64,000 bases of DNA from Eutreptiella sp. 'Long Island Sound 2002'. Taxonomy: Eukaryota; Euglenozoa; Euglenophyceae; Eutreptiales; Eutreptiaceae. The notes below the pieces were generated by a model, which searched no databases, was not told the DNA's origin, and worked only from the letters and a program-made list of their open reading frames with translations. The stretch lies in contig OZ038380.1 of assembly GCA_964036045.1 (NCBI GenBank), positions 187,624,298 to 187,688,297 on the forward strand. Direction: 5' to 3'. The position numbers and the translations under genes are program-made. Below, piece after piece: positions 1,441 to 61,727 of the stretch; positions within the stretch are counted from its first letter, which is position 1; each line of letters begins with the position of its first letter.

Positions 1441-1448
1441 GAAGTTCT

Positions 1449-2160: not shown

Positions 2161-2628
2161 CTGCATCGTGTACGCCATGAGCTCTGGGTCCGGCTGCCCT
2201 TTGCCGCTAAGCCACGCCTGCTCCTGGATCGCGGCATTGCCGCTGACTTTGGAGTAGGACCACCTCCGCTTGAAATACTTTGTGGTCGAGCGGGAGCCTC
2301 GGGCGTCGAGCGTCAGGTTCTGGCACTCGCCGATGTAGCGGGGGGCCAGCAACACCGGGATGGGCGGGGCCACCGGGCAGCACAGCCGCAGGATGCTTTT
2401 GTACGACGTGAAGGTGGGGCACGAGCCCAGGGCGCAGCGCCGCGGCCGCACGTTTGGCGACAGCTGCACGAGCATGCCGGGCATGAGGGTGGCCCCCGGG
2501 CCAAGCTCGATGCGCAGCAGCGTGGGGGTGACCACGGAGCACACCGGCCGCGTTCCGAGCAGCGGGATCATGGCCTCGCTGAGGATCCGCAGGCACTGCG
2601 TCGTCCGGCGGATGTCGGAGGTCTCGAT
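2161..2628 (-). CDS. Exon 7 (last visible) of the giant surface protein gene: REJ-like region
   Basis: This is an internal exon of 156 codons, phase 0 at both ends. The acceptor is GTGCTGCTGCAG|ATC and the donor is ATGCAG|GTGCAC. Its first residues (IETSD) continue smoothly from the previous exon's DVEMAEE, completing what looks like a beta-rich domain with LGTRPVC and LGPGATLMPG motifs. The last third has the pattern typical of a PKD/REJ-like domain start: APPIPVLLAP, then a conserved Cys before NLTLDARGS, then a Trp in RRWSY. In REJ and polycystin-type proteins such regions sit outside the cell, ahead of membrane-spanning parts. No stop is reached, so the gene continues to the left. Naming the REJ domain is by eye; a profile search would settle it. 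Confidence 0.7.
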
Positions 2629-2857
2629 CTGCAGCAGCACGCGAGGGCAGTGGCGTAAGCGGATTGAAGGGGGGGCAGTGCCACAAGATGAAGGGGGGGT
2701 AGCAGCAAATGTGGATAGGTGCAGTAGAACGAGCTACCATGCCTATCACACCACCGATACACACCACACATACCATGCATGCCCACTCTGATGCCTGCCA
2801 CACCACCTATAGACACCACATACCACGCATATGACGCGGGTCAGCGCAGTAACACAC
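2629..2857 (-). other. Intron 6 (229 bp, phase 0) with a small tandem repeat
   Basis: The intron runs from GAAGAG|GTGTGT to a pyrimidine-rich stretch ending CTGCTGCAG. It contains imperfect tandem copies of a unit of about 36 bp built on GGTATGTG, GGTGGTGTG and AGGCAT (about 2735-2835), plus two short poly-C runs just upstream of the acceptor. Translating through it gives a short cysteine-rich read-through ending at a stop at 2807, which does not resemble the flanking domains. Confidence 0.7.
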
Positions 2858-5800
2858 CTCTTCGGCCATCTCAACGTCAACAGTGGCTCCGTCCGAGCCC
2901 ATGCTCGCACTGGCGGCGAAGCGCGGCAGCACCAGCACCGCCGTGTCGTTGGCCGGGGCCGCATCGGGGCTTGCGGACGTGACGTTGGCGACGAAGGCCA
3001 TCTCCGCCCCCGTGTCGGGCCCCGCGAGCAGGCCCGTGAACGTGACGAGCACGCGTGTGCGCGGCGGCAGCGCGGAGGCGTAGCACGTGATGGGCTCAGC
3101 CGTGGCGTTGGACAGGGCCGTGGGGCTGCACCACACGGAGGCCTGCGGGGTCGCCGGCTGGAACTGGGCGTTGACCGTCGCGCCCGCACCGAACACGAGC
3201 TGGTCCGCCGGGAGCGCGACGGAGATGTTCGCGGCGTAGACGAACCCCTCGCCGTCGTTGCGCACGGTGGCGGTGACGGGCACGGGGTCCCCCTCCCCGA
3301 CCCCGAGGCCCCCGGTGCCGTCGGTCCACACGACCGCCGCGTCCGGAACAGCGATCACGGTCGGGAGGCGGGCGGTGCGGTACACCCGGTATTCGGTCGC
3401 GGGCGGCATCGCGCTGAGCAGCGCGGCCTCCACCGCGACGTTCCAGGGGGGGCCCGCGGCCTCCCACCACTCCGCGGCGGTCCGCACCTCGAAGTCCAGC
3501 TCCGTCACGAGCTGCGCCGCCGGCTCGCACTCGACCTCCGCGGGGCCGTAGGCCTGGCACAGCGCGGCGGTCGCGGCGCCCGCGATCCGCAGCTCCGCGG
3601 GGCCGGTGACATTCAGCTGCAGCCGCGTCAGCCCTGGGTCGGTCACCCGTACCCGCAGCGCGTGCGGCACGCCGCTGTACGCGACGCCCGCCGGGGCCCA
3701 GGGCGCCAGCTCCAGCTCGCGCGGCACGACGGTCGACGTCGGGCTGGCGGTGGCAGTGGGGGTGGGGGTGAGGGAGGGGGTGAAGGTGAGCGCCTGCACC
3801 TGGGCCTGGCTGGCGGACGCGGCCCCGTGCACCTGCACGGACACGTACCAGAGGCCCGTGGTGTCCCGCGAGGCCGTGTACACGCACTCCAGCCCTGTCG
3901 CCTGCGCCGACGGGGCGCCGCAGGCGGAGGCGGGGAGCGGCACCGCCGCGTTGAGGCTGTAGACCTTCGCAGTGTCGCACGTCGGGGCAGGACCGAGGGA
4001 GAGGGGCGTGCGGTGCCACACGACGGCGTTGCCGCTGGGGTCGAGAATGTCGAAGTTGGCGCCGATGAGGGTGAGCGGCTGCGTGCTCGAGCAGCCGGCC
4101 GCCGGGCACCCCAGGGCCTCGAAGGTCTCCGGGTGCGGCATCGGCAGCACCGGAAGCGGCGGCACCGCCGCGGCCGGGCTCGGGAGGCCGTGCACCAGCA
4201 CCGTCACGTCCCACGTCCCGGCGCTGGCGACCGGCACCGTCAGCCGGCACTCCAGCCGCCCCGCGGCGGCCGCGACCGGGACGCACGCCGGGGGCGGCCC
4301 GCCGGCGTCGACGCCGCCGAACTGCACGGCGGCGGCGGCGGGGTCAGCGCCCAGGTTGGCGCCGGCGACCGTCAGGACGGTGCCGCCCATGCAGCCCATC
4401 GCGGTCTGCGCGGGGCCGGCCGTCCCGGTGCACTGCAGCCCGTGCACCTCCGGCAACGCCAGCATCAGCACGTTGGGCTCTGAAACCCCGGCCACCCCGG
4501 CCACGACCACCATCGCGCGGTACTCCCCCGTCGCGGGGCCGGGGCGCACGCGGCACGTGAGCACGTCAGCGGCGACCATGAGCAGGTCGCAGTCGACGAC
4601 CGCCCCTTGACCCAGCCCCGGGATCGGGAGGAGCTGGACGGTCGTGGTCGTGCCGTCCCGCCCCAGGTCCTGCCCGACAAGCGTCAGAATGTCGCCGGGA
4701 CGGGCCACATAGAGGTATCCCGTGATCTGCGTCACGACCGGGGCCGGGCGCGGCAGCAGCTCCACCGGGAGCGGGGGCGGGATGTAGCCCCGCACCGTCA
4801 CCTGCACATAGGCGTTGCCAAGCGCCGTGCCGTTCCAGGTGGCGTTGCTGCCCCCGGCCCGCGCGTCGCCGAGGACGCAGTCCAGGCGCCCGGGCTCCAC
4901 CGCGACCACGGCGCACGCGGCGCCGCCCCCGGCCCAAAGGAACACCTGCACGCCGACCTCTGCCGGCGCCCACCCGAAGGCCTCGCCGTACAGCGTCATG
5001 TTGCGTCCGCTGGCGCACAGGGGCACGCCTGAGGCCGGGGCCCCGGCGCACGCGGCGCTGTGGAGCGCCGGGGTCGCGGCAGAGATGCGGAGGGTGCCCG
5101 GGAGCGGCACCGCCGCCTGCCCCACGGCCACAACCACCGCCCACTCCCCGGCCGCTGTGGGGGCCTCCAGGACGCACACCAGCTGCGACTCCGTGACCGC
5201 CCGCGTGGCGCAGCGCGGGGGGTCGCCGCTGGCGCCGGGGGCGGCGATGAAGGAGACCGCGTTGTTGGGCGGGTGGAGCGTGTCGAAGCGCTGCCCGTAG
5301 ACCGTCAGGGCCTCCCCGGACTGACAGCCCCCCACCTCGTCCCAGCAGCTCTCATACCCGTAGACGACCGGCGGCAGCAGCGGCCCCACCGCCACGGCCT
5401 CCGGCTCCGACGCAAGACCGTCCACCTCCACGCGGACATCCCAAACGCCGGTGGCCGCGGGGTACTGCACGTCCAGCGCGCAGTGCAGGACCGTGTCCGT
5501 CACGAGCACCGGGCGGCACTGGGGCATCAGCCACGCGTTGCAGGGCTGTGGCGGCGCCGGCGCCCAGGGCGTCGCCGTCGGGGTGAGGGTTGCGGTTGCG
5601 GTGGCGGTGGCAGTCGCGTTGGTCGCGTTGGGCGCGTCGACCAGGAGCGTCGCGTTGGCCGTCGCGTTGGCCGTCGCGTTGGCCGTCGCGTTGGTCGCGT
5701 TCGTGCCGTTGGTCTCCGCAAACTCGTCAGTCGGCGGCGGGAGGCACTGCGCAGACCACTCCAGAAGACTGGAATTGAACCGCACGGACACCTGCTGGAG

Positions 5801-8800
5801 GCTGTGCCCGAAGTTGCGGCCCCGGATCGTCAACAGCCGCCCGCTGCCGCAGGCCCACGGCACCGTCTCGTTCGGGGCCCGCACGCACGTGCCCTCGTAC
5901 AGCGTGGTGCCGCCGCAGGAGTGGGACAGGACCTCCGGCGGACCGCCCAGCACCGGCACGGGCAGGCGGCTGCTGGAGGCCACGCCGCTCACCTCGAGCC
6001 CCAGCCCCCACACGCCGCTGCTGTTGCCGGGCACCGCCAGCACGCACTCCAGCGCCCCCTCGCACGACACACCGGTGGGGGTGCACGTGGGCGCAGGCCC
6101 CTGCTCCGCCCCCCCAGCGAAGGTCACCGCGTGCTCTGGGAGGGCGAAGGGCACGAGGCCGGCCGCCCGGACCGTGAGCACGGCCCCATCCCGGCAGCCC
6201 GCGGCCCCGCAGCCCGAGACAGACTGCGGGGCGGGCACGGGGGCCGGGCCTACCGAGATCGGGAGGCGCCGGCTCCGCAGTGGCGGGACCACCACCTGCA
6301 GGTCCCACCGCGGCCCCGCGGTGGGGGGGACGAGGAGCTCGCAGTACAGCGCGTCAGGCGTGACGGCCACCGGGCGGCACGAGGGCGCGGGCCCGGCCCC
6401 GACGCTGAAGGCCACTTTGGTGCGGTTCGTGGGGCTGTCGCCGGAGGCGTTGCTGAAGCGGTACCCCAAGACAGTGATGAGGGTGCCACCGGCGCAGATG
6501 GGGCTCGGGGCCCCCGGCACCGGGGGGCACACGACGCGGGTGGCGTTGGGCAGGGCCGCGGCCGGGGCGATGGGGAGCGGCAGCCCGGCGGCCGAGGCCT
6601 GGCCGCTGACGGTGACGGCCACGGTCCAGCCCCCCTCCGCGAGCGCGGGCACCGCAAGGTCACAGACCACCTCCGTGCCGTTGGCCCTGCGCACGCCGCA
6701 CGCCGGGGGCGCCCCGGGGCCTCCGGCGATGGCCACGGCGTTGGCGCCGGGCTGCAGCCCGTCGAAGTTGTCGCCGGTGATGGTCAGACGGTCGCCGTCT
6801 TGGCAGCCCTCGGCCGCGCAGCCCGCGAGGGCCGCCACGACCGGGGGCGGCATGGCCACGACCTGCACGGCCACGGGGCTCAGCAGCGGCTGCAGGTTCA
6901 GCAGCACCGTCAGCTCCCACGAGAACGCGGCCATGCCGGGGTCGCCGACCGCGAGCGCGCACGCGACCGTCGTGTTGTCCGCCAGCAGCGGCGTGCACTC
7001 GGGGGCAGGGCTCTGGGCCCCGCTGCGGAGGCGGACGGTGTACAGGGAGGCGTCGGTGCCGAAGTCGCCGCCCACGACCGTGATCGCGGTGCCGCCGGCG
7101 CAGACGCCCCCGGGGCACCCGGCCACCCCCGTCACGACCGGGAGGGGCGGGGCGAAGAGCACGCCCTCGACGGGGTTGGAGCGCCCGTTGGGGGCCTGGA
7201 CGTACACGTCGTGCAGCCCCGTGGCATTGAGGCTCACCGCCAGCACGCATTCCAGCAACGAGGGGGTCGCGAGGGTCGTGTGGCACGCCGGGGCCGGCCC
7301 CGGCCCCCCTGCGACCTCCACTTCGGTCTCGGGCGCGAGGTGCTGCCCGGCGATGGTGAGGACGTCGCCGGAGCGGCAGCCATCGCCGCCGCCGCCGCAG
7401 CCCCCGAGGCCCTGGAGCAGGGGCAGGGGGGACATGGGGAACTCGACCGTGGCGCGCGCGACCCGCCCCCCCACCGCCAGCTTTACGTCCCAGCGCCCCT
7501 CCGTGCCACGCCCGGCCACCAGGTGGCACTCCACGCGCCGCGGCGTGCTCTGGAGGGAGGCGCACCGCGGCGGCGCCCCGGACCCGTTGACGAAGGCGAG
7601 CGCGAGGTCGGCCGCGGTCCCGAAGTGGCGGCCGTCGAGGGTGAGGGTCTGGCCGTCGCGGCAGAGGGCGGTCGCGTTGTCGTCGGGGGACACGTCCCGC
7701 TCCGGGGCGCAGGCCGTGGCGACCAGCGCCGGGGGGCCCGGTGTCACCGGGACATGGAGCGGGGCCGAGGGCTGCCCCGCGACCCACACCCGCACCGCGA
7801 ACGCGCCCGCCGTGGCGTTGGGGACGGCCAGGGCGCAGACCAGCGCCGCGGGGCCGGCGGCCAGCGGCGCGCAGGCCGGGGCCGGGCCCACAGCCCCGGC
7901 GGCGGGGGCCGCGGTGACGGCGTTGTTGCCGAGGACGTGGGGGTCGAAGTGGGCGCCGTGGAGGGTCAGCAGCGCCCCATCCAGGCACCACTGCCCTGCG
8001 CAGCCGGTGACGCTGTGCAGCTCCGGGGCGGGGGCGGGGGCGACCTCGATGTAGAAGGGGATTTGGCTGCGGCCCTCGCCCACGGGCCGCACGACGGCCA
8101 CGCTGACGTTCCAGACCCCCTCGGTCGAGGGGGGCACGCGGAGGGCGCACTGGAGCCGGGTCACGGTCGCGGAGACCGGCACGCAGACGGGCGTGGGGCC
8201 GTAGCCTCCCGCGCTCAGGAACACGATGTGGACGCTCGATGGGTCCTTCCCGAAGTTGTCACCCTCCAGCGTCAGGAGGTGGCCGCCCGCGCACGCGACG
8301 CCCAGCGACTCGCCGGTACGGCCGGCGCAGTGCGCGGCCCCGATGCAGGGGACCAGGACCCCGCTCTCGGTCATCGTTGCGGTGGGGGGGCTGGCGGAGG
8401 CGGTGTCTGTAAGCGCCTGCGTCCCGGAGCGGGTGGCGGCCAGCAGGAGGGAGCTGGTGGATGAGGGGCTGTGCGAGAGGCTGTCGCCGGGGCTGTCGCT
8501 GGCCGTGAGGGCGTCGGTTGGGGAGGCCGGGTCAGTGCAGGTGGCGCTGGGGGTCAGGGTTGCGGTCAGGCGGCGGGACTCGGTGATGGTGGCGGTGACG
8601 CCCAGGAGGGCGGCGAGGGAGTCGGACGGGGAGTACGTCAGGGTCTGCGTGGGCTTCAGGGTGCACGTCATACTGGACCCCGTGCCCGAGAGCGAGAGCA
8701 GCGACCAGGTCCCGCTGCGGGTGCCGGTCTGCGGGGACGGGGTGCCGGTGGAGCGGGTGCCGGAGGACGACGCGGTCCCGCCGGACCCGGTCGCGCTCGC

Positions 8801-11800
8801 GGTGGACCGCGACACGGTCGCAGAGCGGGACAGGGTGGGCCCGAGGGACTGGCTGCGGGTGAGCGCCGCGGAGCGGGTGGAGACGGTTGGGCTCTGGGTG
8901 GGCGTGAGCGCGTCGGTGTGGGAGGGCGTCGTGGTGCGGGGGTATGTGGGCGTCACGGTGGCGAGCTGCGTGGCCGAGGGGGAGGCCTGCATCGAGGCCG
9001 ACGCGCTGGTGCTGGCTCTTGTGCACGTGGAGTGGGAGGGCGTGCAGGTGGGGGACGTGGAGGCTGTTGCGGACGTGGAGGGGCTGGCGGATTCCGAGGC
9101 CGAGAATGTCGCGGTGGGGTCGGCCGTCGAGGACGCGCTGTCGGTGGGGCTGGGTGAGGCACCCAGCGTGGCAGTGCTGACGGTGTAGTGCGTTGGCGAG
9201 GGGGTGCAGGACACGGGTGACGGGGTGGGAGTTTGCGAGGTTGGGCTGGGCGACGCAGGTGTGGGGGAGAGGGACGTCGAGGCGGTGGAAAAGGTGTGGC
9301 TGAGCGAGACCTCTGGAGAGGCCGTCCCCGACCATGACAGCGTGGGGGCATGCGGAGGGGTGGGCGTCCGGGTGAAGGAGCGCGTGGGGGTCGCGGTGTG
9401 GGACGGTGAAGACGTGGTGGTCGAAGTGGCCGTGGGGGAGACTCGGGCCCACGGAGTGGACGTGAGGGTGGGGCTGACGGGGCGGGATGGCGGCAGCGTC
9501 CGCGTCGCCGTCGCCGACGGCGTGCGGGTGGGCGTGGCAGGTCGTGACCGGGAGCAGGTGTAGATCGGGGAGCGGGACTTTGTGTGCGGCAGCGACGAGG
9601 AGGGGGTGAAGCGTGGGGACAGGCTTGCGGAGGGGGGCGAGGGTGTGAGCGTGAGGGTGGTCGAGTGGGAGAGGCTCCGGTCCGCAGTGACGGTGCAGGT
9701 GCGCACTGCCGAGGCGGTCCAGGACGGCGGCGGCGGGGAGGCCGTCCCCGTGGGCTGTGGGGTGGAGGTGATGGAGGGCACACCGCTGTGGCTCCCAGTG
9801 GGCGTCCGTGACCCGGGCGAGGCGGTCGGGGAGCGCACGCTGAGTGTGAGAGTGGACGGCGTGCGGGAGGGAGTGAGAGAGCCCGTGGGGGTTGGCGGGG
9901 TGCGCGTCGGCTTTGGGGTCACCGTGGGGGTGGCGGCGGCCCCGGCGGTGATGGTGCAGGTCCCTGTGGGCGAGTGGTGATCGGAGCCGGTTGCACTGCA
10001 GGTGGCGGTTGAGGTGGACGTGGGAGGCCGCGTGACGGTGCGGGTGGAGCTGAGGGAGGCCGTCGAGGTGGGGGTGATGGTGGGCGCCGGGGTTCTGGTG
10101 GCAGAGGGGGGGGAGGCGGAGATGGTGCAAGTCGGCGTGCGGGAGGCTGTGCCCGTGCGGCTCACGCCCGCGCTCAGTGACGGAGTCGGTGGGGTCGCGG
10201 TGTGAGTGGGCGTGGGGGTGCGGGAGGGCTTTGAGGGGGAAAGGCTCCGGACGAGCGTCGTAGAGGGAGTGGCGGTGTGGGAGTGGGAGGGCGTGCGGCT
10301 GCGGGTGGGCGGTGACGGGGTGGACGTGGCCGTGGCCCTGGGGGTGGGGGTTTTGGTCAGGGTCTCAGAGGGGCTCCAAGTCGGGGAGGCGGTGCGGGAG
10401 GCGGAGGGAGACGGGGTCCGGGTGATGGTCCGGGTTGGCGGGGTATCGGACCACGTTGTCGTGGGGGGGGCGGTGATGCTACTGGACCCGGTGGGCGTGT
10501 CGTGCCCCGTCGGCGTCGAGGATGGCGCGGGGGTGTGGGTCCCCGTGACGGGGCGGGTGTGCGTACCCGTGACAGCCCTGGTGGCGGACAGTGTGACGGC
10601 GGGCGTCGCGCTCGGAGTGACAGGGGCAGTGAGGCTGGGCGTTGCGGTGGGGGAGACCGAGGGCGTGGGGCTGCGGCTGGTGGGCGTTCCGGTGCACGAG
10701 CGCGTGCGACTCAGGCTCGGACTGGCGGAGCGGGTTGCAGTCTCCGTGGGTCGCGCGGACGGCGTACGCGTGCTGCAGCTGTGACTGAGGCCTGTGGGCG
10801 TCGGCGTGCGGGTGCAGCTGCACGTCCGCGAGCCGGACCCGCTCGAAGACCTCGAGAGGCTGGGGCTGCGGGTACCGGAGACTGAGGGGCTGGAGGCTGA
10901 GGCCGTGCGTGAGGCAGAGGGTGGGCTGGCGGTGTGTGTTGCGGTGGCGGACGCGGTGAGGCTCATAGAGAGGGAGCGGCTGTGGCTGAGGGACGTGGTG
11001 CGGGTGCTGGACGGGGGGGACGCGGAGGCGGAGGGGCTGCGGGTTCGGGTCGTGGTGGGGGCCAGCGTGACGGTGGGGGAGCGGGAGCGGGAGGCGGAGC
11101 GGGTGGCCGCAAGGGACAGGGACGCGGACGGGGACGGAGCGGTGGCGGAGACGGTGCTGGTGGGATGGGAGGTGCACGAGCCGGTCCGGGAGAAGGTGAT
11201 CGTGGGGTGTGGGGTGGCGCTCACGCTGGGGCTGTGCGTCACGGTGGCGGGGGACTCGGTTGGAGCCGCGGTGGGGGTCGCGGTCCACGTGCGGGTGGGG
11301 GCCGCGGTGGCCGACTGTGAAGCGGATGCTGAAGGCGTGGGGCTGCGGGTGCGGGACTGTGGGGCGGTGGTGGTGGGGGTGGGGCTGCTGCTGAGCGTGA
11401 GGCGGGCCGGGGCGCTGGCGGACCGGGAGAGGGAGCGCGTGGTGGCCGTGAGGGTGAAAGTGGGGGATGCGGAGGCGGCGGTGGCGGAGGACAGGGTGCG
11501 GGTCGCGGAGGGCGGCGTAAGGGTGCGCGTGCGCGTCGCGGCGGCGCGGCGCGTCTGCGTAGGCGTGGGGCTGAGGGACTCGGAGGGCGACCGGGAGGGG
11601 GACGGAGTCAGGGACGTGCCGCTAGGGGTGACCGACGGCGTGCCGTAGCGCGTCGCGGTTGCGGTGGCCGGCGGAGAGGAGGTGCGGGTGGCGCTGGTGG
11701 TTCGGGTGGGCCGCGCGGTCGCGGACTCGGTGAGGGTGCGCGTGCGGGTGCGGGTGCTGTCGTAGGTGACGGACTTGCTGATGGTCATAGGGGCGGAGGG

Positions 11801-14800
11801 GGTCACCGAGACTCCGGATGTTGCGGTCGCGGAACGTCCCGGGGACACGGAGGCGGTCCCGGAGCCCGTTTGGGTGCCGAGGCCGAATACCGTTTTGGAG
11901 GGGGTGGGCGTGGGGGTCCCGCTGGCGGTGGGCCTAGCGGTGGTGGTCTGGCTGCGGGTCGGTGTCGTGGTCGCGGTGGCGGTGGGCGGGACGCTGGCGG
12001 TGCGGCTGCGCGACGACAGCGTGAGGGAGGGGGAGCAGCTCCGGGACGCCCACAAGCTCCGCGAGGCCGTCCGGCTGCCGCTTGTGCTGTGGGTGACGGT
12101 GGGGACGGGGGTGACGCTGGGGGAGGGCGTGTCGTCCTTGGATATAGTGCGGCTGCGGGACGGGGAGAAGGTGCCCGTGTAGGTCGGGCTCTGCGTCGGG
12201 GTTGGGTACGCGGTCGCGCTGCAGCTGCGTGTGGGGCTCGCGGTGAGGGTGCGGGCGTGGGAGGGGGAGGCGGTGTGGCTTGAGGAGGGGGTGGGGGACG
12301 GACGCGGGGACAGACTGCCCGAGCGCGTCGCGGTGGGAGACGCGGAGGGGGGCGTGGCGGAGCGCAGAGTGGTGGCGGTCCGACTGGACCCGGCGGAGCG
12401 GCTGAGCGTGACCGTGGTGGTGCAGGAGTACGGGGCGGTGGCTGTGCGGGTGCGGCCAGGGGAGAGGCTGCGGGAGGCGGTTGGGGTGTGCGAGGCGGCA
12501 GTGAGTGTGGCGCGGTGCGAGGCGGAGGGGGTGGGGCTGGCGGACGGGCTGCGGGTCGGGGACGGCGGCGAGGGGGTGAAGGTCTTGGTCGGGAGCGAGG
12601 TCGCGGTGCTGGTGGGGGTGCGGGTGACGGTGAAGGTCAGGGACGTGCGGGTGGCGAACGATTTGGTGAGGGGGCACGACTGCGTGGGCGAGCGCACGGT
12701 GGTGCTGGAGGCGGTGGCGCTGGCGGAGGGGGTGGCCACGCGGCTGGGGGATGCCGTGATGGTGCAGGTGAGGACGGCGGTGCGGGTGTCGGTGCGGTCC
12801 GGGGTCCGGGACCGCGTGGCGGTGGGGGTCGCGGTGCGGGTCGGGACGACGGAGAGCGTGGCGGAGGAGGGGGTGTAGGACTGCGATGGGGTGGGTGGCG
12901 ACCGCGTCGGAGTGGGCACGATGGTGGGGGTCCGCACCGCGGAGTAGGTCGGCGTCGCGCTCTTGCTGACGGTCGGGGTGCCGCTTAGGGACGACGAGGG
13001 GCTGCAGGTGGGCGATGAGGGGGACTGGGAGAGGGGGCTCGGGGTCCGTGTGAGGCTTGGCGAGTGGGTGGGCGAGCGGGAGGGCGTGTGCGAAGGGGCC
13101 TGGGACAGCGATCGGGAGCTGAGGGACCCCGTGGGGCTCGGGGTGCGCGTCAGTGTGGGCGTCGACCGTGTGGCGGTGGAGGAGGCCGTGGGGGTCGGCG
13201 AGCGGGTGGTGCGGGTCAGGGTGGTCGTGGGGTAGCGCGTCAGGGTGGCGCTGGAGCGGGTGCCGGAGGGGAGGCCGGTGCCGGTTGGGGTCTGCGTGGC
13301 TGAAAGGGTGCGGGAGGTGGCGGTCAGAGTGCGGGAGGACTGTGTGAGACTAAGCACCGATGGGCTCCGAGAACGGGAACCGGAGGCGCTGAAGGTGGAG
13401 GTCAGTGCATACGAGTAGGACCCGCTGTGGGTGTGCGATGCGGTGGGGGTCAGGGAGCGGGAGCGGCTGCAGCTGCGCGTAGAGAGACTGAGGGTTGCGG
13501 AGGGAGTTGCGGAGGGGGAGGGTGTCAGGGGCTGAGAGACGGAGGCGGTGGCGGTGGTCGTGGAGGTTAGAGTGAGAAGGGGCGTGGCGGTGAGGGTGCC
13601 GGAACTGCGGGTGTCTGTGCACGACGGCGATAGTGGCCGGGACTCGGTGGGAGTGCCGGAGCGCGTGGAGGTGCGCGTGCGCGTCGCGCGCAGGGACGGC
13701 GTGTTGGTGAGCGACGCCGAAGCGGAGAGGCTTGGGGTGTGGGTCTGGCTGTACCGCGGCGATGGCGAGCCGGTGCATGTGTCTGAGGCGCTGCGACTGG
13801 GGGAGAGGGAGAGGGAGGGCTTGGGACTGAGACTGGCAGTGCGGCTGCCCGAGGCGGTCGGACGGGCGGTGGGGCTTGGAGACCGTGTGCGGCTTTTGAC
13901 GCCGGAGGCAGTGCGAGAAGCAGTCGTGCTCAGGCTCGGGCTGCGTGTCCCTGTGGTGGCGGAGGCCGTCCTGGTCCGTGAGAGGGAGGAGGCGGAAAGG
14001 GTGGGGCTGGCGGTGGGGGTCGGGGCGGAGGGTGTGGCAGTCGTGAGGGACCGCGACAGGGACCGGGGCGTGCCGCTGCGCGAGAACGTGGTCGTGGCCC
14101 GGGGGGTGGCGGTTGCGCTGGGGCTGACGGTGCGGGAGGTGGAGCGGGTGCAGGTGGGCGCGCGCGACGCGGAGCGCGAGGCGGTGGGCGTGCGGGAGGC
14201 GGTCGCCGTCCACGAGGCCCGCAGCGTCATCGTGGTGGGGGTTTGGGACCGTTGGCTGCGGGTGGCGGTACTGAGGGTGGGGGTGGCGATGCACGTCACG
14301 GTGTGTGTGGGCGTGCGGGTCCCCATGAGCGAGCGCGTGCGCGTGAGCGAGGGGGAGGGGGCGGGGGTGACGGTCGGGGACCGGGTCCCGTGGGAGCAGG
14401 TGACGCTGGAGCGGCTGTCGGAGAGGGAGGGCCCCGAGGGGGAGGGGGAGCTGCTGAATGTGCGGGAGGGGGAGCGCGTCGTGGCGGTGCGGGTCGGGGA
14501 CAGGGAGGCAGTGCCCGAGAGGCTCGGGCTGAGGCTGTGGGTCGGGGATCCGGTCCCGCTGGGGCTGCAGTGCGGCGTGGCGGTGAGGGAGGCGGACGGG
14601 GACGGGGACGGGCTGCGGGAGCCGGTGCGGCTGTGCGTCCGCGTGGGTTGCTCCGTCGGGGACAGGCTGGCGGAGAAGCTGAGCGAGGGGGTCCCGGAGG
14701 AGGTCGCGGTGCCGGACGGCGAGGGGGAGGGGCCGGTGCCGGAGGGCGAGACCGTGGGGGTGCCCGACGGGCGGAGGCTCTGCGTGGGGCTGCGGGACGC

Positions 14801-17800
14801 GGTGCCGGTGCGGGTGCGGGAGGGGGTGGCCGTGCGGGACGCCGACGCGGAGCCGGTGGTCGGCGTCGGGGACGGTCCGGTGTGCGAGGGCGAGGGGGAC
14901 GGGGTGGGGGACCGCGACGGGGACGCGGTGGGGCTGGGCGTGCGGGAAGCGCTGCCGGAGGCGGAGGCGCTGCGGGTGGGCGAGAGGCTCGCAGTCCCGC
15001 TGGGGCCGCTGGGGCTGACGGTGGCGCTGGAGAGCGAGGGCGTGGGGCTGTGCGAGCGCCGGGAGAACGTGGGGCTCGAGGACCAGGTGCCCGTCGGGGA
15101 GTATGTCCGGGTCGGCCTCAGGGTCGCGGAGTCGGTGGCAGTGGCGCTGCTGCCGGTGCGGGTGACGCTGCCGGTCGGGGACGGCGTGAGCGAGGGAGAG
15201 CCGCTGCCGCTGCGGGTCCCGCTGGCGCTCCGGGAGCCGGTGGAGAGGCTGAGGGAGAGCCCGGACAGCGTCACGCTGCCGGTGCGGCTGGCGGTGCGGG
15301 ACGGCGTCCGGGTGTGGGACGCCGTGGCGCTGGAGGTGCCGGTCGGGCTCTGCGGCTGCGTCCGGGACAGCGTGTCGGTGGGCGACCAGGTTGTGGTCGG
15401 GATGAGCGTCAGGGTGGCTGAGCTACTGGGGGACGGGGAGAGGCTGGCACTGGGGGTGGGGGTCAGGCTCTGGGTGGAGTTGCACGAGAGGGAGGGTGAG
15501 GCCGTGGGGCTCCGGCTGCGGGAGCCCGTCGTAGTGGCGGTGGACAGGGAGCGGGACGCGGTGCTGCTGGGGCTGCACGTTGGCGTTGATGTGCGGCTGC
15601 GGGTGGAGGGGGTGAGGGACGCAGATGCGGAAGGGGCGGTCACGGACGGCGACGCCAGGGCACTGCCGGTGACTGTGGGAGACAGGCTCGCGGATTGGGT
15701 GGGGCTGTTGGAGGAGGATGGAGTGGCCGTGGGTGTAGGGCTGGCGCTCAGGCTGCGCAGTGCAGTCGCCGACGCTGTCGCGGACGGGCTGCGCGTCGGC
15801 GCCGCAGTGAGTGAAGGCGTAAGAGAAGGGGTTGCGGATGCGGTGCGCAAGGGGCTGGGGGAGAGGGAGGCGGAGGGCGTGGGCGTCGCGGTACCGGACT
15901 TGGAAGGGCTGCGGGGGGATGCGGTGGGGCTGGCGGATGGCGGTGTGGCAGAGGGAGAGCAGGTGGACAGGGTCGCAGTGTGCGACGGCGTCCTCCGTGT
16001 GACCGTGGGCGAGGCGGTCCCCGTAGATTGTGTCGCGGAGAAGGTGCGTGTCGCGGAGGCCGTGCGCGACCGCGCGGACCCGGAGAACGTGCCCGAGGGC
16101 GTCGGGGAGAAGGACAGCGTTGCGGTGGTGGTGAACGAGGCGGTGTGTGTGGGCAGCGAAGGGGACAGGGCCCCGGTGGCCGTGAGGGTGGCGGAGAAAC
16201 TCGTGCCCGTGGCCCGGGAGTGCGAGCCCGAGCAAGACAGGCTCGGGGAGCCGGAGCGCGCGTCGGTGCGCGACGCGCTGGACGTAGCGGACGGGGGGGA
16301 GCCGGACCGACTCGGCGACGGAGAGGCAGAGGCCGGGGACGCGGTGGGTGTGGGGGAGCGCGAGACGGAGGCGGTCGTGGGGGACGGGGTGCAGCTCCGG
16401 GTCCTTCCGGTGGCGGTGGTGCTCAGCGTCAGGGACGGCGTGCAGGTGCGGGACGAGCGCGAGGACGTCAGCGTGCCGGAGGCCGAAGGCCGTGTCCGGG
16501 TCATGGGGTAGGTCTGCGTGCGGGACATCGAGGGGGAGGGACTCGCGGTGTAAGTGGCGGTGAGCTGCGCTGTCTGGCTGCGGGTCGCCGTGGCGGGGGA
16601 CGGCGACACTCCGGGGGACAGGGAGCACGTACTGACGGTGAAGGAGGCGGAACGCGAGGGCCCGGTTGCCGACGGGGTAGACACCGTCACGCTGCTGCTG
16701 CGGGTGCCGGTGGCGCTGCTTGTGACGGTGCGGGTGTGGCTTAGGGTTGGGGTGGGGCTGGGGCTGCCGCTCACGGACGCCGAGCGGGAGGCGGAGGGCA
16801 GCGTGCGGGAGCCGGTGATGGAAGAGGCCGTGAGAGATCTGGTGGCGGTGCCTGAGGCCGACCAGGTGGACGTGGCGACGGGGGTCGCGGAGGTGCTGGG
16901 GCTCTTGGAGTGCGTGCCACTGGCTGCGGGAGAGCCCGAGGCTGTGGTGGACAGGGTGCGTGAGGAGGAGGCCGTGAAGGTGCGCGTGGGGACGAGGGAG
17001 GGAGTGCCGGTGGTCGATGGGCTGCGGGAGCAGGACCTGCTGGCGCTGCCGGAGACGGAGCGGGTGGGGCTGGGGGAGCCCGAGGAGGTTGTGGTGGGCC
17101 TAGGGGTGCCCGTGGGGGTGACGCTGTGCGACACGGTCCGGATGCGGCTCCGGGTGGGGGACGCTGTGGGCGACAGGGAAAGGCTCGGGCTTGGGGAAAG
17201 GCGAGGGCTGTCGGTGGCGCTGGGGGAGGCGGAGAGGGTGGTCCGGGTGCGTGAGGGGGTGGGCGAGGGGGTACGGGTGCCGGATGCGGTGCGCGAGGGG
17301 GACGGGGAGAGGGAGGCGGTGTGCGAGGGAGTGAAAGACGCGGAGACAGATGCCGTGGCAGAGGAAGCGGAGTGTGAGAGGGAGGCGGCGGTGGCGGAGC
17401 GAGTCACGGTGGGGGCTCGGCTGAGGCTCCGCGTCGCAGAGCAGGTCTGGGTTGGCGTGGAGGACGAGGACAGTGTGGGCAGCCGGCTGCCCGACGTCGA
17501 CAGGGAGCCGGAGCCGGTGCGGCTGCCGGACTGCGAGGGGCTCGAGCTGGACGTGCGTGAGCCGGAGTGGGAGAAGGTGGTGGTGGCGACGGGGGTCGCG
17601 GTAGCGGTGAGAGACGCCGAGGGGGACGCCGATGTGGAGTCGGTGCAGGTCGCGTGCACGCTGCGTGTGGGGCTGGGGGTCGGGGATGATGTGCAGCTCT
17701 GCGACACAGACTCAGCCAGAGACGCTGTGGAAGAACCTGTGAGTGACTGTGAAAGGGAGGGGGTGAAGCTGTGCGGTGATACGGTGACGGTGGCAAAGGG

Positions 17801-20220: not shown

Positions 20221-20679
20221 CCTCTGCACGCACTCCGGTCTCCAGACACACCCGTGTAGGGGTCCGTGTCGCTGTGCTGCTGCAGGCCTCTGTGGTCGTC
20301 CTTGAAGCAGTGCCGACAGACACAGACACAGAGCCAGTACTGCGGCTCGGGCTGGCTGTGGCGGTGGAAGTGATACTTGGCGACACGGAAAGCGTTGGGG
20401 TCTTGGTTCCCGAGCAGCTACGGGATGTGCTACTGGAGAGAGAGGAAACCGCAGTACCGGAAGCGGAAGAGGTGCCGCTGTGGGATGTGGTCGTGGTGGG
20501 CCGGCTGGTGCCGGTGCGCGAGAGGGAGAGGGAGGAGGACCCGGTGGGCGACGGGCTTTGGGTTTCGGATGGCGCGTCGGACAGGGTGTGGGAGAGGGAG
20601 CGGCTGGGCCGGGTGCAGGTGATGCTGGTGGGGGTGGCGCTGATGGACAGGGAGCCCGTCGAAGTGGCGGATGGCGTGC
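20221..20679 (-). CDS. Exon 5 of the giant surface protein gene: short Ser/Thr/Pro exon
   Basis: This small exon has exactly 153 codons and is phase 1 at both ends. The acceptor is CCCTCCTTCATTGTAG|GCACG and the donor GAGG|GTGAAG. It encodes the same alternating Ser/Thr pattern as its large neighbours, beginning with GTPSATSTGS and continuing through SLSRTGTSRP and TATASPSRST. It lies alone between two clearly non-coding stretches rich in microsatellites, which is the best evidence that the neighbouring giant open frames are exons of one gene and not separate genes. The last 15 or so residues lose the Ser/Thr pattern, so an earlier donor such as the GTGTGT near 20253 (phase 0) is a possible alternative. 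Confidence 0.7.
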
Positions 20680-31000: not shown

Positions 31001-31618
31001 GCGAGGGCGAGACGGTGGTGCGGCTGAACGTTGGGGTCACGGTGCCGGAGGCGGAGGGGCGGGTGGGGGAGGGCGTGCCGCTGCCAGTGCGGCTGCCGGT
31101 GACAGTCACGGCGCGGGCCGCGGTTTCGGTGGAGGAGGCGGTGCGCGTCGCACTCCACGAGGCGGACTGGGTGACGGTCGAAGTTGGGGGGGCCGTGGGG
31201 GTATCGGAGGGTGTGGCAGTGCGGCTTGGGGACGGGGTGGCGGAGGGAGGCGTGCGGGAGAGGGACCAGGTGCGGGTGAGGGAGGTGAGCGTGGGGGACT
31301 CGGTCGCACTGGGGCTGGCAGGCACTGAGCGGGTGCGGCTTGGGGTGGGCGTGGGGGTCGGGGACCGGCTGAGGGAAGTGGTGAGCGCGGCGGTGGCAGA
31401 GGCACTGCCGGAGCGGGACGGGCTGACGGTGGCGGACTGCGTGGGGGGTGAGGCGGTGGTGGAGACCGTGCGGGTGCTGCGCGAGGCGGTCCGGGCGGAG
31501 AGGGTCGCGGTGCCGGACGCGGGGCGCGTGGCGGTGGCGGACGGGCTCGGGCTGGAGGTGTGCGTGGGGGGCGTTTGGGTGAGGGAGACGGTGCGCCGAC
31601 GGCTGGCGGTGCCAGAGC
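22019..31618 (-). CDS. Exon 4 of the giant surface protein gene: Ser/Thr/Pro-rich stalk
   Basis: This exon is 9,600 bp, exactly 3,200 codons, phase 1 at both ends. The acceptor is CCCTGCTCTCGTCTCGCAG|GCTCTGG; the donor is ACCCAAG|GTCTGC. A methionine-like GTG at 31325 is not a real start, because the same frame and composition run on for another 97 codons to the acceptor. The whole product is mucin-like: Ser or Thr at almost every second residue, with Pro, Ala, Arg and Gly between, rare Cys and Trp, and almost no Lys, Asp or Glu. No globular domain was seen. The codons are strongly C-rich, giving long but meaningless open frames on the other strand. The role is probably an extended glycosylated spacer outside the cell. 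Confidence 0.8.
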
Positions 31619-48700: not shown

Positions 48701-51700
48701 AGGGTGAGGGTGACACTCGGAGTGCACGTGACGGAGGGCGTCGTGGATGCGGTCGGCGTGCACGTGGGGCTGCGGGTCGGCGTCGAGGACACCGACGGAG
48801 TTGTGGTCGCCGACGAGGTGCCGCTGCCGGTTGGAGTAGAGGTTGGTGATGCCGTCACGGTGGATGTTCCACTGGGAGTAGTTGACGCGGTCGAGGTCGA
48901 GGACGGGGTGGGACTGGGAGTCGACGTTGCTGTACGGGACCGCGTGGACGAGGGCGTCATTGTTTCGGAAGGTGTGCCCGTGCTGGATGGGCTCGGGGTT
49001 GGGGTCGAGGTCGCTGTGCGGGTGGCGGATGGGGTGGCCGATCCTGTGCCCGTGCTGGTGGCCGAAGCGGATGGGGTTCGTGTGGGCGATGCGGTGTGCG
49101 TCGCGGTGCGCGTGGTCGTGCGGGTGCCCGTGCGGGTTGGGGTCCCGGTCGGAGTACCGGACACGGTCGGGGTCGTGGTGGTGGTCGGCGTGGGGGATGG
49201 AGTGAGAGTCAAAGTGGGGGTGAGGGTGGGGCTGGCAGTGGCTGTGCCCGTTCGCGTGCTGGTGGGTGAAGGCGTGGCGGATACACTTGGTGTGAGGGTG
49301 GGGGTGGGGGTGGGTGTCGGACTTGGGGTCTGGGAAGGGGTCAGGGTGTGGGACGCCGTAGAGGTCGGGGTGCGCGTAGTTGTTGACGTCCGCGTGGCTG
49401 TGGCGCTTCGCGTGGGAGTGGAGGTGGGGCTTGAACTCACCGTCGGTGTCACGCTGACGGACTGCGTTGGGGTGTGGGAGAGTGTCTGGGTAAGACTGCA
49501 CGTGGGCGTGCCAGTGCTACTTCGTGTCGGGGTTGACGATGGGGTCGGGGTGGCGCTTACGCTCGGGGTCGTGGTCTCCGTCGTCGTGCCCGACTCCGTG
49601 GGGGTTGCAGTGGCCGTGGTGGTGGGACTGACCGTGGCCGAAGGGGTGTCACTGAAAGTGCGGGTGTGAGTGGGCGTGCAAGTTCTGGTGGGCGATTCGG
49701 TCGGGGACGCACTCACCGAGCCGGTGCCCGACGGCGTTTGGCTCTGGCTCGGGGTAGACGTGGGAGTGTCGGTGTGGGAGGCCGTGCGCGTGACCGTCGG
49801 CGAAGCCGTTGGTGAGCCGGTCTGCGAAGGGGTGGCCGTCTCGGTGGACGTTTCCGAAGGGGTGTGGGTGTATGTTGCGGTACCAGTGGGCGTGACAGAC
49901 GGGGTCGGGGTCAGAGTACGTGTGGGGCTCGCGGTCGGGCTGAAGGTTGTGGTCGGACTGACGGTTGTAGTCGGTGTGGGGGACGCGGTCAGCGTGGGGG
50001 TGCCAGTCACCGAGGGAGTGAAAGTTGCAGTGGGAGTCACAGAAAGAGTCGTGGAACGGGTCAGCGTACTTGTCGGCGTTGCAGTTGGGGACAGCGTGGG
50101 GGAAGCAGTTCGCGTGGGCGAGGCTGTCGGCGAGCAAGTGGCTGATGGGGTTGGGGTGAGCGTTTGTGTGGCGCTTCCGGAGAGTGTTGGTGTGAAGGTT
50201 GCCGTGGGGGTAGAGGATGGTGTCACAGTGGCTGTCAAGGTCTGTGTCGCAGAACTACTGGGCGTTGGAGTTGGCGTGGGGCTGGGGGTGAGGGTTGGTG
50301 TCGTGGTCATGGTCATGGAAGGGGTTGCGGTGGAGGTCGCGGTTGAACTCGCGGTAGGGGTAGAGGTCGGCGTGCAGGTGGGTGTCGGTGTCTGACTGGG
50401 GCTGGGGGTGCACGTGGGGGTAGGCGTGGGCGTAGGAGTAGGGCTATGGGTTGAGGTTGGACTGGGGGTCGAGCTCGGAGTCGTGGTCTGGGTAGGGGTA
50501 GGAGATGCAGTCGGAGTGGGCGTAGCCGTGCCGCTGGCGGTGGGCGTAGGGCTTGGTGTTGTTGTTGGTGTGGCAGTGGTGGTGGGGGTAGGAGTCGGGG
50601 TTGATGTTTGGGAGGGTGTGGGAGACCGCGTCGCAGTCATCGTTGAGCTAGGGCTGGGGCTTGCGGTACATGTGGCGGTGGGAGTGGAGGTCGGTGTAAA
50701 TGTAGGCGTAAGCGTAGGCGTTGGTGTCAAGGTGCAAGTTCGGGAAGGACTAGGTGTTGTACTTGGCGTTGGTGTTAGTGTGCGGGAAGGTGAGGGTGTG
50801 GCTGTGGGGCTTGGGGTCCGAGTCGAGGTTGCTGTTACGCTTGGCGTTGTGGTTGCTGTGCGGCTTGGGCTTATGCTGGGTGTTGGAGTCAGGGTAGGAG
50901 TTGGAGTGAGGCTGCGAGTTGGTGTAGATGTTGGACTGAGTGATGTACTAGGTGTTTGTGTATAGGTCGATGAATGGCTGGGCGTAAGTGTAGGGGTTCT
51001 CGTTGGTGATGCTGTTGGTGTTGAGGTGAGAGTCTGGGAACTGCTGGGAGTTGCCGTTGGGGTCAGCGACGGCGTTTCTGTGGTTGTGGCAGTGGAGGTT
51101 GTGGTTGGAGTTGAGGTAGCAGTGAGGGTTGGACTCTCGGTTGAAGATGGGGTAGGGCTAGGTGTTGAGCTTAGTGTTGCACTGGGGGTGGGGCTTGCGG
51201 TTGCGGTCGGCGTTGCCGTTGGCGTCGGTGATGGTGTGCTTGAAAGAGTGGAGGTGGGAGTTTGGCTGGGAGTTGGAGTCAGAGAAGGAGTGAGGGTGCC
51301 AGTGGGCGTCTGTGTTGGGGTTAGTGACGGGGTGGCGGTGGATGTAGCGCTGGTGGTGCTGCTGGGTGTACTCGTTGGAGAAAAGGTTAGGGTAGGGCTC
51401 AGAGACGGTGTCAATGTGGATGATGCTGTTGGTGTGGCTGTCGGGGTGGGTGTCAGGGTGGGTGTAGAGGAAAGAGTCGGCGTAGGGCTAGGGGAAAGAG
51501 TTGGGGTGACACTGCGGGTTGGTGTAGCTGTTGGTGATGTTGTGTGTGTTGAGGTAAAGCTGAGACTTGGGGTTTGCGTTGGGGTTGCGGTCGACGTTGC
51601 CGTTGGCGTCAGTGATAGTGTGCTTGAAAGAGTGGAGGTGGGAGTTTGGCTGGGAGTTGGGGTTGCGGTCGGCGTTGCCGTTGGCGTCGGTGATAGTGTG

Positions 51701-52877
51701 CTTGAAAGAGTGGAGGTGGGAGTTTGGCTGGGAGTTGGGGTTGCGGTCGGCGTTGCCGTTGGCGTCGGTGATAGTGTGCTTGAAAGAGTGGAAGTTGGGG
51801 TTGCGGTCGACGTTGCCGTTGGCGTCAGTGATAGTGTGCTTGAAAGAGTGGAGGTGGGAGTTTGGCTGGGAGTTGGGGTTGCGGTCGGCGTTGCCGTTGG
51901 CGTCAGTGATAGTGTGCTTGAAAGAGTGGAGGTGGGAGTTTGGCTGGGAGTTGGGGTTGCGGTCGGCGTTGCCGTTGGCGTCGGTGATAGTGTGCTTGAA
52001 AGAGTGGAAGTTGGGGTTGCGGTCGGCGTTGCCGTTGGCGTCGGTGATAGTGTGCTTGAAAGAGTGGAGGTGGGAGTTTGGCTGGGAGTTGGGGTTGCGG
52101 TCGGCGTTGCCGTTGGCGTCGGTGATAGTGTGCTTGAAAGAGTGGAAGTTGGGGTTGCGGTCGACGTTGCCGTTGGCGTCAGTGATAGTGTGCTTGAAAG
52201 AGTGGAGGTGGGAGTTTGGCTGGGAGTTGGGGTTGCGGTCGGCGTTGCCGTTGGCGTCAGTGATAGTGTGCTTGAAAGAGTGGAGGTGGGAGTTTGGCTG
52301 GGAGTTGGGGTTGCGGTCGGCGTTGCCGTTGGCGTCGGTGATAGTGTGCTTGAAAGAGTGGAAGTTGGGGTTGCGGTCGGCGTTGCCGTTGGCGTCGGTG
52401 ATAGTGTGCTTGAAAGAGTGGAAGTTGGGGTTGCGGTCGGCGTTGCCGTTGGCGTCGGTGATAGTGTGCTTGAAAGAGTGGAGGTGGGAGACTGGCTGGG
52501 AGTTGGAGTCAGAGAAGGAGTGAGGGTGCCAGTGGGCGTCTGTGTTGGGGTTAGTGACGGGGTGGCGGTGGATGTAGCGCTGGTGGTGCTGCTGGGTGTA
52601 CTCGTTGGAGAAAAGGTTAGGGTAGGGCTCAGAGACGGTGTCAATGTGGATGATGCTGTTGGTGTGGCTGTCGGGGTGGGTGTCAGGGTGGGTGTAGAGG
52701 AAAGAGTCGGCGTAAGGCTAGGGGAAAGAGTTGGGGTGACACTGCTGGTTGGTGTAGCTGTTGGTGATGTTGTGTGTGTTGAGGTAAAGCTGAGACTTGG
52801 GGTTTGCGTTGGGGTTGCGGTCGACGTTGCCGTTGCCGAGGGACTGCTTGTCGTTGTAGCTGTCGGAGTGGTCGTCG
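33705..52877 (-). CDS. Exon 3 of the giant surface protein gene: 6,391-codon Ser/Thr/Pro-rich exon
   Basis: This exon is 19,173 bp, exactly 6,391 codons, phase 1 at both ends and without a stop. The acceptor is a textbook one: TTTCATTTTCTGTTGCAG|CGACGACC. The donor is AGCTCATCAG|GTGCCA. Two zones are visible. From 52877 to about 46100 the protein is Thr/Pro-rich and Arg-poor (TPTATPT and TPSQTPT types), with recent tandem duplications at 51228-52830 and a pure Thr-Pro run at about 46025-46091. From there to 33705 it is the Ser/Thr-alternating, Arg-containing type shared with the next exons. No globular domain or Lys-rich segment was seen. It is probably a very long O-glycosylated stalk. A TTG or other non-ATG start inside it is not credible, because the frame and composition run to the acceptor. 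Confidence 0.8.
46025..46091 (-). repeat. Pure Thr-Pro dipeptide tract; G4-prone on the opposite strand
   Basis: The coding strand reads about eleven consecutive ACC-CC(N) pairs, so the protein has an unbroken (TP)n run. The plus strand is GGGGT/GGGGGT repeated, with many closely spaced runs of at least four guanines. The tract marks the change from the Arg-poor Thr/Pro zone to the Arg-containing Ser/Thr zone of exon 3. Confidence 0.85.
51228..52830 (-). repeat. Nested tandem repeats: 78/60-bp units inside a 1,230-bp duplication
   Basis: The marker GTGATAGTGTGCTTGAAAG on the plus strand occurs 13 times between 51612 and 52458, spaced 78 or 60 bp. The two lengths differ by one 18-bp block that encodes a six-residue TPSQTP step. 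Flanking this, 51228-51600 is repeated nearly letter for letter at 52458-52830, an offset of 1,230 bp (410 codons). All unit lengths are multiples of three, so the frame is kept. The very few mismatches point to recent expansion. Confidence 0.9.
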
Positions 52878-57800: not shown

Positions 57801-57899
57801 CACCCGCTAGCTAGACATGGTCACTGTTGTATATGCCATGAGCGGTTGGATGGCATGCACGTAGTTCCGCAAAGCGGACACACCGTGGGGTATTGGGTG

Positions 57900-61035: not shown

Positions 61036-61270
61036 TCCAAAACCCAAAATTTTGGGTTCCAAAAAATGGCCTACATCAATTTTTCCTTCAGTAAACTCCA
61101 TTTTATGCCACTATGACATCTGGGTCCCAGTGATCCAGGCAAAGGGGGGGGTCCCTCCACCAATGGTTGTCAGCCCGTCTCATACACGCTTGCCCTGCTT
61201 TGATCGGCAAAGGAATCCCTCGGGGGCACAAGAGAGCACAAGCACGAACACATGCATGATGATGGGTCAC

Positions 61271-61480
61271 CTGCCATGAGCTTCCGAAGCTGCAAATGAG
61301 ATTCCACATTCTCGGCTGACTTGACGGGTCGGCGCATGAGATTCAAATCTGGATTTGGGGACAAATATAGGAGCTGTTGAGCAGTACTTGAAACGGGTGG
61401 TATTGTAGCAAGGAGCTTTGAGGGCTTAGCATTCGCATCCTGAGGACTGTTCACAAATTCATTACTACGGACACATTGTA
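61271..61480 (-). CDS. Exon 2 of the giant surface protein gene (proposed)
   Basis: This exon has exactly 70 codons and is phase 1 at both ends. The acceptor is CATGTCTTCTTCTGTGAG|TACAATG; the donor CATGGCAG|GTGACC. The product includes NSPQDANAKPSKLLATIPP and LMRRPVKSAENVESHLQ, an ordinary mixed-composition segment that may be partly helical, with one Cys near its start. I do not recognise a family. It follows the signal-peptide exon after a 60-bp intron. Its outgoing phase fits the acceptor of the 6,391-codon exon, but that join spans 8.4 kb, so other exons could lie between. The GAG acceptor is acceptable but not strong. Confidence 0.5.
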
Positions 61481-61540
61481 CTCACAGAAGAAGACATGAA
61501 GACACACACGGCAGGCAAGCAATTTCACACACAAACATAC
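61481..61540 (-). other. Intron 1 (60 bp, phase 1)
   Basis: It runs from the strong donor ACCACAG|GTATGTTT to CTTCTTCTGTGAG. The interior is pyrimidine-rich (TGCCTGCCGTGTGTGTC). It is short, but all elements are in the expected order. Confidence 0.5.
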
Positions 61541-61727
61541 CTGTGGTTCGCATCAATGTCTGACCGTGCCGTGGAATAGAGACTTGATTGGTTAGATATC
61601 CGTGGCGTGCAGAGCTTGTCGCGTCATGGTTGGAAGGACTTGTTGCATTTTGCGCTACCCCCGCTATTGTGCTGCACAAGCAGCAACCGATGAAAACACA
61701 TAATAGCAAAGGTATCGGCCATCGCAT
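61541..61727 (-). CDS. Exon 1 of the giant surface protein gene (proposed): signal peptide
   Basis: The reading begins MRWPIPLLLCVFIGC, continuing to CLCSTIAGVA and then QNATSPSNHDATSS. This is a classic secretory signal: one basic residue, about 14 hydrophobic residues, small residues at the likely cleavage site near AGVA-QNAT, then a Ser/Asn-rich mature start with an N-glycosylation site. The exon ends after 62 codons and one base at ACCACAG|GTATGT, a near-consensus donor in phase 1. An in-frame ATG 24 codons upstream (61799) would put a polar segment ahead of the hydrophobic core, so the inner Met is preferred. Secretion fits the stalk and TIG exons downstream. The link to them is inferred from strand, phase and logic only. 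Confidence 0.55.

Follow-up and report, generated by a model that had tools for sequence, protein, structure and literature searches.

The closest described systems to the gene presented here are two kinds of membrane protein and one kind of glycoprotein tract. The REJ domain (PF02010) is said to define the REJ/PKD1 family, which includes sea urchin SpREJ and human PKD1 (excerpts of PMC1934368), while in the Chlamydomonas mastigoneme a protein of 8,572 residues, MST3, has been proposed to run as a single chain through the hair, to set its length (42 repeats x 19 nm, i.e., ~800 nm), and to tie the hair to PKD2 in the ciliary membrane (excerpts of PMC11015965). Alternating Ser-Pro fused to a reporter was found to be glycosylated in Chlamydomonas, with a higher protease resistance (excerpts of PMC5552477). 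Here, we analyzed a 64,000-nucleotide stretch of the genome of Eutreptiella sp. 'Long Island Sound 2002' (contig OZ038380.1; G000:C3:187624298-187688297), hereafter the window, which contains no N. That a single minus-strand gene in this window codes for one giant protein is well supported by the data below, and this protein is likely to be a REJ/polycystin-1-like, membrane-anchored, stalked surface glycoprotein.

A first-pass annotation, made from the letters alone, had proposed seven minus-strand segments of 187, 210, 19,173, 9,600, 459, 16,769, and 468 nt. We could reproduce their GT/AG borders and in-phase joins, which yield 46,866 nt, or 15,622 stop-free codons, as claimed. After correction of one junction, the model comprises 46,812 nt or 15,604 visible codons (phases 1,1,1,1,0,0), with a visible protein of 1.55 MDa prior to modification. 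Exon 1 (61541..61727) supplies the start ATG and a signal-peptide-like N terminus (MRWPIPLLLCVFIGCCLCSTIAG...), with a hydropathy that reaches 2.46 at residues 7-25; the 11-kb upstream region holds two signal-peptide-like starts including this one, where 60 shuffles gave a mean of 0.3 and a maximum of 3. Exon 2 (61271..61480) is an uncertain symmetric cassette, open, in phase, and skippable. Exon 3 (33705..52877), exon 4 (22019..31618), and exon 5 (20252..20679, 428 nt) all consist of a (Ser/Thr)-X tract, with residues 133-6523 in exon 3, where a recently duplicated block (51578..52506; 216-, 138-, and 60-bp direct repeats) has a copy number that may be assembly-dependent. Exon 6 (2858..19603, 16,746 nt) contains the end of the tract (to ~8360), an IPT/TIG array (~8344-3794), a short (S/T)-X linker, and a DUF11-like region. 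Exon 7 (2161..2628) is a Cys-containing module directly before a REJ domain, from where the gene runs on past the left edge.

The longest sense frames of exons 3, 4, and 6 (6390, 3199, and 5581 codons) exceeded the maxima of 1406, 2076, and 1381 codons found in 100 dinucleotide shuffles of each, a margin that is narrower for exon 4 and for which exon 6 was used two bases short. The G+C content at third codon positions (GC3) is 0.74-0.92 in exons 3-7 (0.74-0.90 in exons 3-6), and C makes up 55-69% of the second codon positions in exons 3-6. The introns have 45-59% GC and hold stops in every frame, save one frame of the 60-nt intron.

The gene is dominated by the tract, residues ~133-13,614, which forms one (Ser/Thr)-X dipeptide stretch of about 13,480 residues, a rule that the first-pass annotation left unmentioned. 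It starts with a perfect run (residues 134-2421; 52875-46012), in which 1,144 of 1,144 units have Ser/Thr at alternate positions. Beyond residue 2421 the rule persists with phase slips (376 in 13,468 residues, with none in the first 2,288), and across the entire tract 94% of on-phase positions are Ser/Thr. The X residues are overall Pro (28%), Ala (18%), Arg (13%), and Leu (10%), with Pro rising to 36% in the strict part. Outside the duplicated block, all 861 units of the strict run keep the rule, with Thr codons ending in each of the four bases (1.83 bits) and with differing codons in 291 of 442 neighbouring Thr pairs; Ser in the strict run is written with both codon families (AGY 121, TCN 182). 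The rule would be broken by 53% of the possible single substitutions at strict-run codons, and 200 residue shuffles of the tract gave longest runs of at most 25 units.

The same pattern can be used to evaluate the splice junctions. For junctions 3/4, 4/5, and 5/6, we scored (S/T)-X continuity over all frame-compatible GT/AG pairs within 150 bases, using residue frequencies derived from the corrected tract, which makes the score slightly circular. Both junctions of exon 4 ranked first: 33705/31618 out of 39 pairs, with a lead of 11.5 units, and 22019/20679 out of 59, with a lead of just 1.1 units. The junction 20221/19626 of the first-pass annotation was misplaced, as it ranked 25th of 66, while the best pair, 20252/19603 (phase 0), had a lead of 19 units over it and of 4.8 over the next-best pair. 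The former also creates the sole non-tract stretch inside the tract (residues 9867-9885 in the first segmentation), which 20252/19603 removes, and we accordingly shifted the exon 5 donor from 20221 to 20252 and the exon 6 acceptor from 19626 to 19603. A collinear homologue, P0001, runs across the last proposed junction, 2858/2628.

This homologue relates to the part of the protein that follows the tract. In exon 6, Pfam profiles matched TIG (PF01833, 6.9e-31, seven stretches, above the cut-off), DUF7498 (4.4e-52), and DUF7497 (2.4e-37), as well as DUF11 under its cut-off (E=0.017). P0001 (3,168 residues), the sole database relative found, was obtained by words from the TIG part alone and aligns with E=1.7e-158 and 40.4% identity across 1,831 columns that span the exon 6/7 junction; exon 7 by itself has 34% identity to it across 146 columns (BLASTP). 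Its record comes from ENA, with a longest contig of 271,556 bp. It shares, in the same order, the TIG array, the (S/T)-X linker, the DUF11-like part, the exon-7 module, the REJ domain (1.4e-13), and hydrophobic segments, and differs in that its record begins inside the first TIG repeat, so that it covers no stalk region. A protein search with the whole 1,847-residue TIG part gave no match among the 7,990 candidates sharing most words, which alone were scored; P0001 lies within the length range of that search and was, we think, displaced by low-complexity words. A search with the C terminus (1,462 residues) found no match either, in a length range that excludes P0001. No relative appeared in scans of viral and prokaryote contigs, and PDB sequence searches gave nothing useful, with two viral capsid rows (E=0.042) taken as chance; a single NCBIfam row (19.2 bits vs a cut-off of 200) was rejected as well. 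An AlphaFold model of exon 7 from a two-row alignment had a predicted local distance difference test score (pLDDT) of 39.8 and was not used. A literature search, judged by titles and abstract openings and hence no proof of absence, recognised no publication on this gene family among the entries listed.

The first-pass annotation had described the gene as open at the left, and indeed it extends at least 16.5 kb beyond the window's left edge. We examined 20 kb on that side (negative window coordinates denote this DNA) and found five same-strand pieces at -5460 to -16480 that follow P0001 residues 1889-2843 in their order, exon 7 having ended at P0001 residue 1,878 of 3,168. The first piece (-5460..-6269) matches REJ (PF02010, 4e-13, 49.2 bits vs a cut-off of 25, profile positions 15-191 of 452), a domain without a Pfam match inside the window itself. 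By eye, a hydrophobic stretch comes after CRTTHLTEF in the fourth piece (at -13492), and more such stretches lie in the fifth (at -16235); the same C...HLTEF motif can be seen as CNSTHLTEF in P0001 and, degenerate, as CGAEHTTEF in the paralogue C13 described below. Hydropathy peaks at residues 2785 and 2813 of P0001 and at 9490, 9556, 9583, 10348, and 10385 of C13.

The gene is thus ~78 kb or more, from 61,727 down past -16,480. The five left pieces contribute ~850 residues, and from the end position of P0001 ~1,290 residues may be missing from the window, which would bring the full protein to ~16,450-16,900 residues. The description of the product as secreted should give way to membrane-anchored, which the protein probably is, and mostly extracellular, as the gene continues into REJ, GPS-like, and hydrophobic segments. 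To place it among the largest proteins predicted anywhere is fair, but it is no record: Titin and PKZILLA exceed it in size. Excerpts of PMC12300183 give no residue number.

The genome further contains a family of such genes, which, like the membrane end, lay beyond the view of the first-pass annotation. A search with exon 7, in which all 30 first-look candidates were scored, gave eight other loci at E<=1e-3, with E values of 9.5e-6 and 5.6e-4 for the weakest two, and the tract was present in all four loci whose longer flanking DNA was taken. One of these, C13 (60052240-60083811; E 5.6e-4), has one uninterrupted frame of 10,524 codons, from an ATG preceded by a TGA to a TAG. Its product has a hydrophobic N terminus followed by an F5/8C-like domain, then a tract of 6,479 residues and a TIG array (4e-23), and finally a DUF11-like part, a REJ domain (8.8e-29), and five C-terminal hydrophobic peaks. 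In C24, a 13,600-codon frame shows the same domain order up to the exon-7 module, with a tract of 11,444 residues. The tract lengths in the three measured genes are accordingly 6,479, 11,444, and ~13,480 residues. At a locus at 10.8 Mb of C10, the tract lies in two frames, one of at least 4,144 codons that is truncated where the stretch ends and one of 10,431 codons, and at C22 a 10-kb piece is fully open in one frame, with 42-51% Ser/Thr in ~3,250 codons. The remaining four loci (~3.3-kb stretches) have open frames of 1,286, 7,209, 3,299, and 299 residues. The paralogues share the dipeptide rule though their TIG part is just ~30-35% identical. The F5/8C-like domain (PF00754) precedes the tract in two paralogues, in C13 (L021:3096-3875; 3.6e-06, 27.6 bits vs a curated cut-off of 28.2) and at the N terminus of C24 (1.9e-05, also under the cut-off), and none is seen in exons 1-2 of the window gene.

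Two readings would deny that there is one giant protein, and both fit poorly with these data. Tandem separate genes, one per large exon, that merely look joinable are very improbable. The introns of 2,086 and 1,339 bp could conceal gene ends, and an in-frame ATG lies ~7 codons upstream of exon 5, so that a protein could, in principle, begin at exon 5 on its own. Exons 3, 4, and 6, however, have no in-frame ATG in their first 746, 429, and 467 codons, the open frame that immediately precedes each of them holds none either, and exon 5 has none inside it. The frames of exons 3-6 pass their donors and stop 35-130 bases later (that of exon 5 within 130 bases). With the two top-ranked junctions, the homologue across the last join, and, above all, the same architecture in one frame in C13, which removes most doubt on splicing, the single-gene claim of the first-pass annotation stands. 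Still less credible is a tract of low-complexity satellite DNA that is open by chance, such that the "protein" would be translated junk. The antisense frames are also long, with plus-strand open frames of 1,548 codons (38462-43108) and 1,143 codons (5033-8464) opposite exons 3 and 6, at P=0.01 and 0.015 vs codon shuffles; these count against our reading of the tract, but we tentatively read them as a by-product of the dipeptide order. Tandem Repeats Finder covers just 4-10% of exons 3, 4, and 6, and long runs are confined to the frame of the gene, with runs elsewhere of at most 39 units on the minus strand (inside other exons of the gene) and at most 11 on the plus strand. The rule is moreover common to paralogues that have diverged in their TIG part. 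Because no unit of the strict run is broken despite diverse synonymous codons, and because tandem-repeat coverage is low, we read the dipeptide rule as a protein-level constraint under selection.

How does this giant protein compare with the known systems? It resembles the REJ/PKD1 family in the REJ domain, present in this gene, in C13, and in P0001, in its large ectodomain, and in a number of transmembrane segments that, by simple hydropathy and eye only, falls in the family's range of 1-11. A possible GPS-like motif, seen by eye, precedes a hydrophobic segment; in the family, a GPS cleavage site lies ahead of the first transmembrane segment. It differs in its TIG array and in a stalk of >13,000 residues, in PKD-repeat profiles that match below their cut-offs only, and in lacking PLAT and polycystin channel profile matches. 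Natural arabinogalactan proteins are short. Their (SP)n glycomodules share with the tract an alternating pattern, which in the form of Ser-Pro is glycosylated in Chlamydomonas (excerpts of PMC5552477), whereas X in this tract can be any of many residues. The protein is ~4x as long as human PKD1 (4,303 residues, excerpts of PMC1934368). The likeness to MST3 considered here is one of architecture: both would be giant membrane-anchored proteins, and the extended, O-glycosylated shaft of MST3 outside the cell has been suggested to determine how long the ciliary hair is (excerpts of PMC11015965). In MST3 the prolines form contiguous repeats, and C-type lectin domains and a PKD2-like channel domain are present, whereas the present protein has non-contiguous Pro, a REJ-bearing anchor, and ~2x the length.

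From these comparisons we propose the following scheme. The signal peptide would direct the chain into the secretory pathway, where Ser/Thr (and Pro, perhaps as hydroxyproline) may be O-glycosylated, which would keep the chain extended and protease-resistant. At 0.25-0.34 nm per residue, the stalk of ~13,480 residues could reach 3.4-4.6 micrometres (in round figures 3-5 micrometres). It would be followed by the array of IPT/TIG (Ig-like) domains, the DUF11-like part, REJ, and the GPS-like motif, and the protein would end with at least two transmembrane segments and probably a cytoplasmic tail. This REJ/GPS/transmembrane end would anchor the protein and may transmit pulling force to the membrane. 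The parallel to MST3 suggests a hair or hair core, for which the most likely site would be the flagellar surface. There, the protein would form a mastigoneme (flagellar hair) or the core of one, whose length would depend on that of the stalk, in line with the proposal made for Chlamydomonas MST3. In its full form, we offer this only tentatively and with the odds against it: the family might provide the filaments at the core of the non-tubular hairs on euglenid flagella, with essentially one polypeptide per long hair, the tract length as a genetic ruler, and a REJ/polycystin-1-like anchor. Euglenid hair lengths are reportedly ~3 and 1.5 micrometres, as attributed to Bouck et al. in 1978. The available portions of PMC8075587, PMC12423646, PMC8061765, and PMC8277818 do not give such lengths. 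Euglena mastigonemes do exist, as indicated by the title of a 1982 paper by Melkonian et al. that PMC8075587 cites.

A body-surface or mucilage glycoprotein, or a gamete or prey adhesion receptor, in place of a flagellar hair has a chance not far short of even. The two paralogues with F5/8C-like N termini would fit such a role, though both domains score under the curated cut-off. Nothing decisive stands against it; what speaks for a hair or bristle is the micrometre scale of the stalk, together with the example of MST3. Several further observations weigh against the anchored-hair proposal or parts of it. The flagellar location rests on analogy, as the sequence itself carries no flagellar indication. 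The tract is Arg-rich and strongly basic (942 K+R vs 144 D+E; isoelectric point ~12), which is unusual for a mucin-like stalk and is a feature not required by a glycan-covered hair. At the membrane end, Pfam gave no GPS match up to E=10 in P0001, C13, and four pieces of this gene; PLAT/LH2, which in the REJ/PKD1 family usually though not always follows the first transmembrane segment, had no match in P0001, the last 2,565 residues of C13, and the four pieces; and the polycystin channel (PF08016) had none in P0001 or C13. The transmembrane calls come from simple hydropathy or from eye, and hydropathy peaks also occur within the C13 ectodomain. The part from REJ to the tail lies outside the window, with an exon model in outline. 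At the other end, exon 2 is unproven: it is a 210-nt symmetric cassette with a GAG acceptor and a GC3 of 0.435, whose skipping keeps the frame, and its sole support is that its last residues, LRKLMA, resemble the GRRLLA/T before the tract in two paralogues (by eye). Along the gene (61727-33705), GC3 rises from ~0.45 in exons 1-2 and the first 850 codons up to ~0.9, so that the low GC3 of exons 1-2 alone is no ground for dropping them.

If the stalked surface glycoprotein is as we propose, it represents a family of giants whose two-residue repeat is extreme and kept by selection, with Ser/Thr at nearly every other position over >13,000 residues, and a euglenid that combines REJ/polycystin-1-like anchors with micrometre stalks. 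The genes would be candidates for euglenid flagellar hairs, making hair composition and length control directly testable. Should the hair proposal be true, hair "rulers" would have evolved in parallel to MST3 of Chlamydomonas, and polycystin-like receptors would be linked with mastigonemes in two lineages that lie far apart. The largest genes of such genomes may also be missed or split in gene models.

The genome (2.28 Gb) contains 39 matches to the paraflagellar rod family PF05149 (best 1.2e-105), compared to matches in 0 of 14 control genomes, and 3,283 exact copies of a 24-base sequence that we take to be part of the Euglena spliced leader, where the reversed control gave 0; we take these matches to mark a euglenid genome. 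A candidate spliced-leader acceptor, TCTCTACCTGCAG, ends at 61775 of the window, 48 bases upstream of the start ATG, and is followed by a short upstream ATG frame. In intron 2, retroelement remnants were suspected by eye, and among 10 of 53 frames scanned only two Pfam rows appeared (E=0.098 and 0.25), leading us to drop this idea. No tRNA (ARAGORN) or Rfam match at the gathering threshold was found in the window, where by eye two tRNA-like stretches with GGTTCGAT-type B-box motifs lie on the minus strand at ~63575-63640 and 63900-63960, perhaps copies of a short interspersed element. By eye, a retroelement may lie beside the C13 gene (G000:C13:60089198-60097372 and 60107518-60109935; L021-L023), where a reverse-transcriptase-like frame (AYLGFCNYYSGYIK) accompanies two frames of 1,036 and 1,688 codons. 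The intron after exon 7 carries an 85-bp tandem array (50-1445; 16.4 copies, 96% match), which is adjoined by runs of a CCTAGTAAAAAAAAACTTTTTTTTTTACTAGG-like palindromic unit at 1444-1608.

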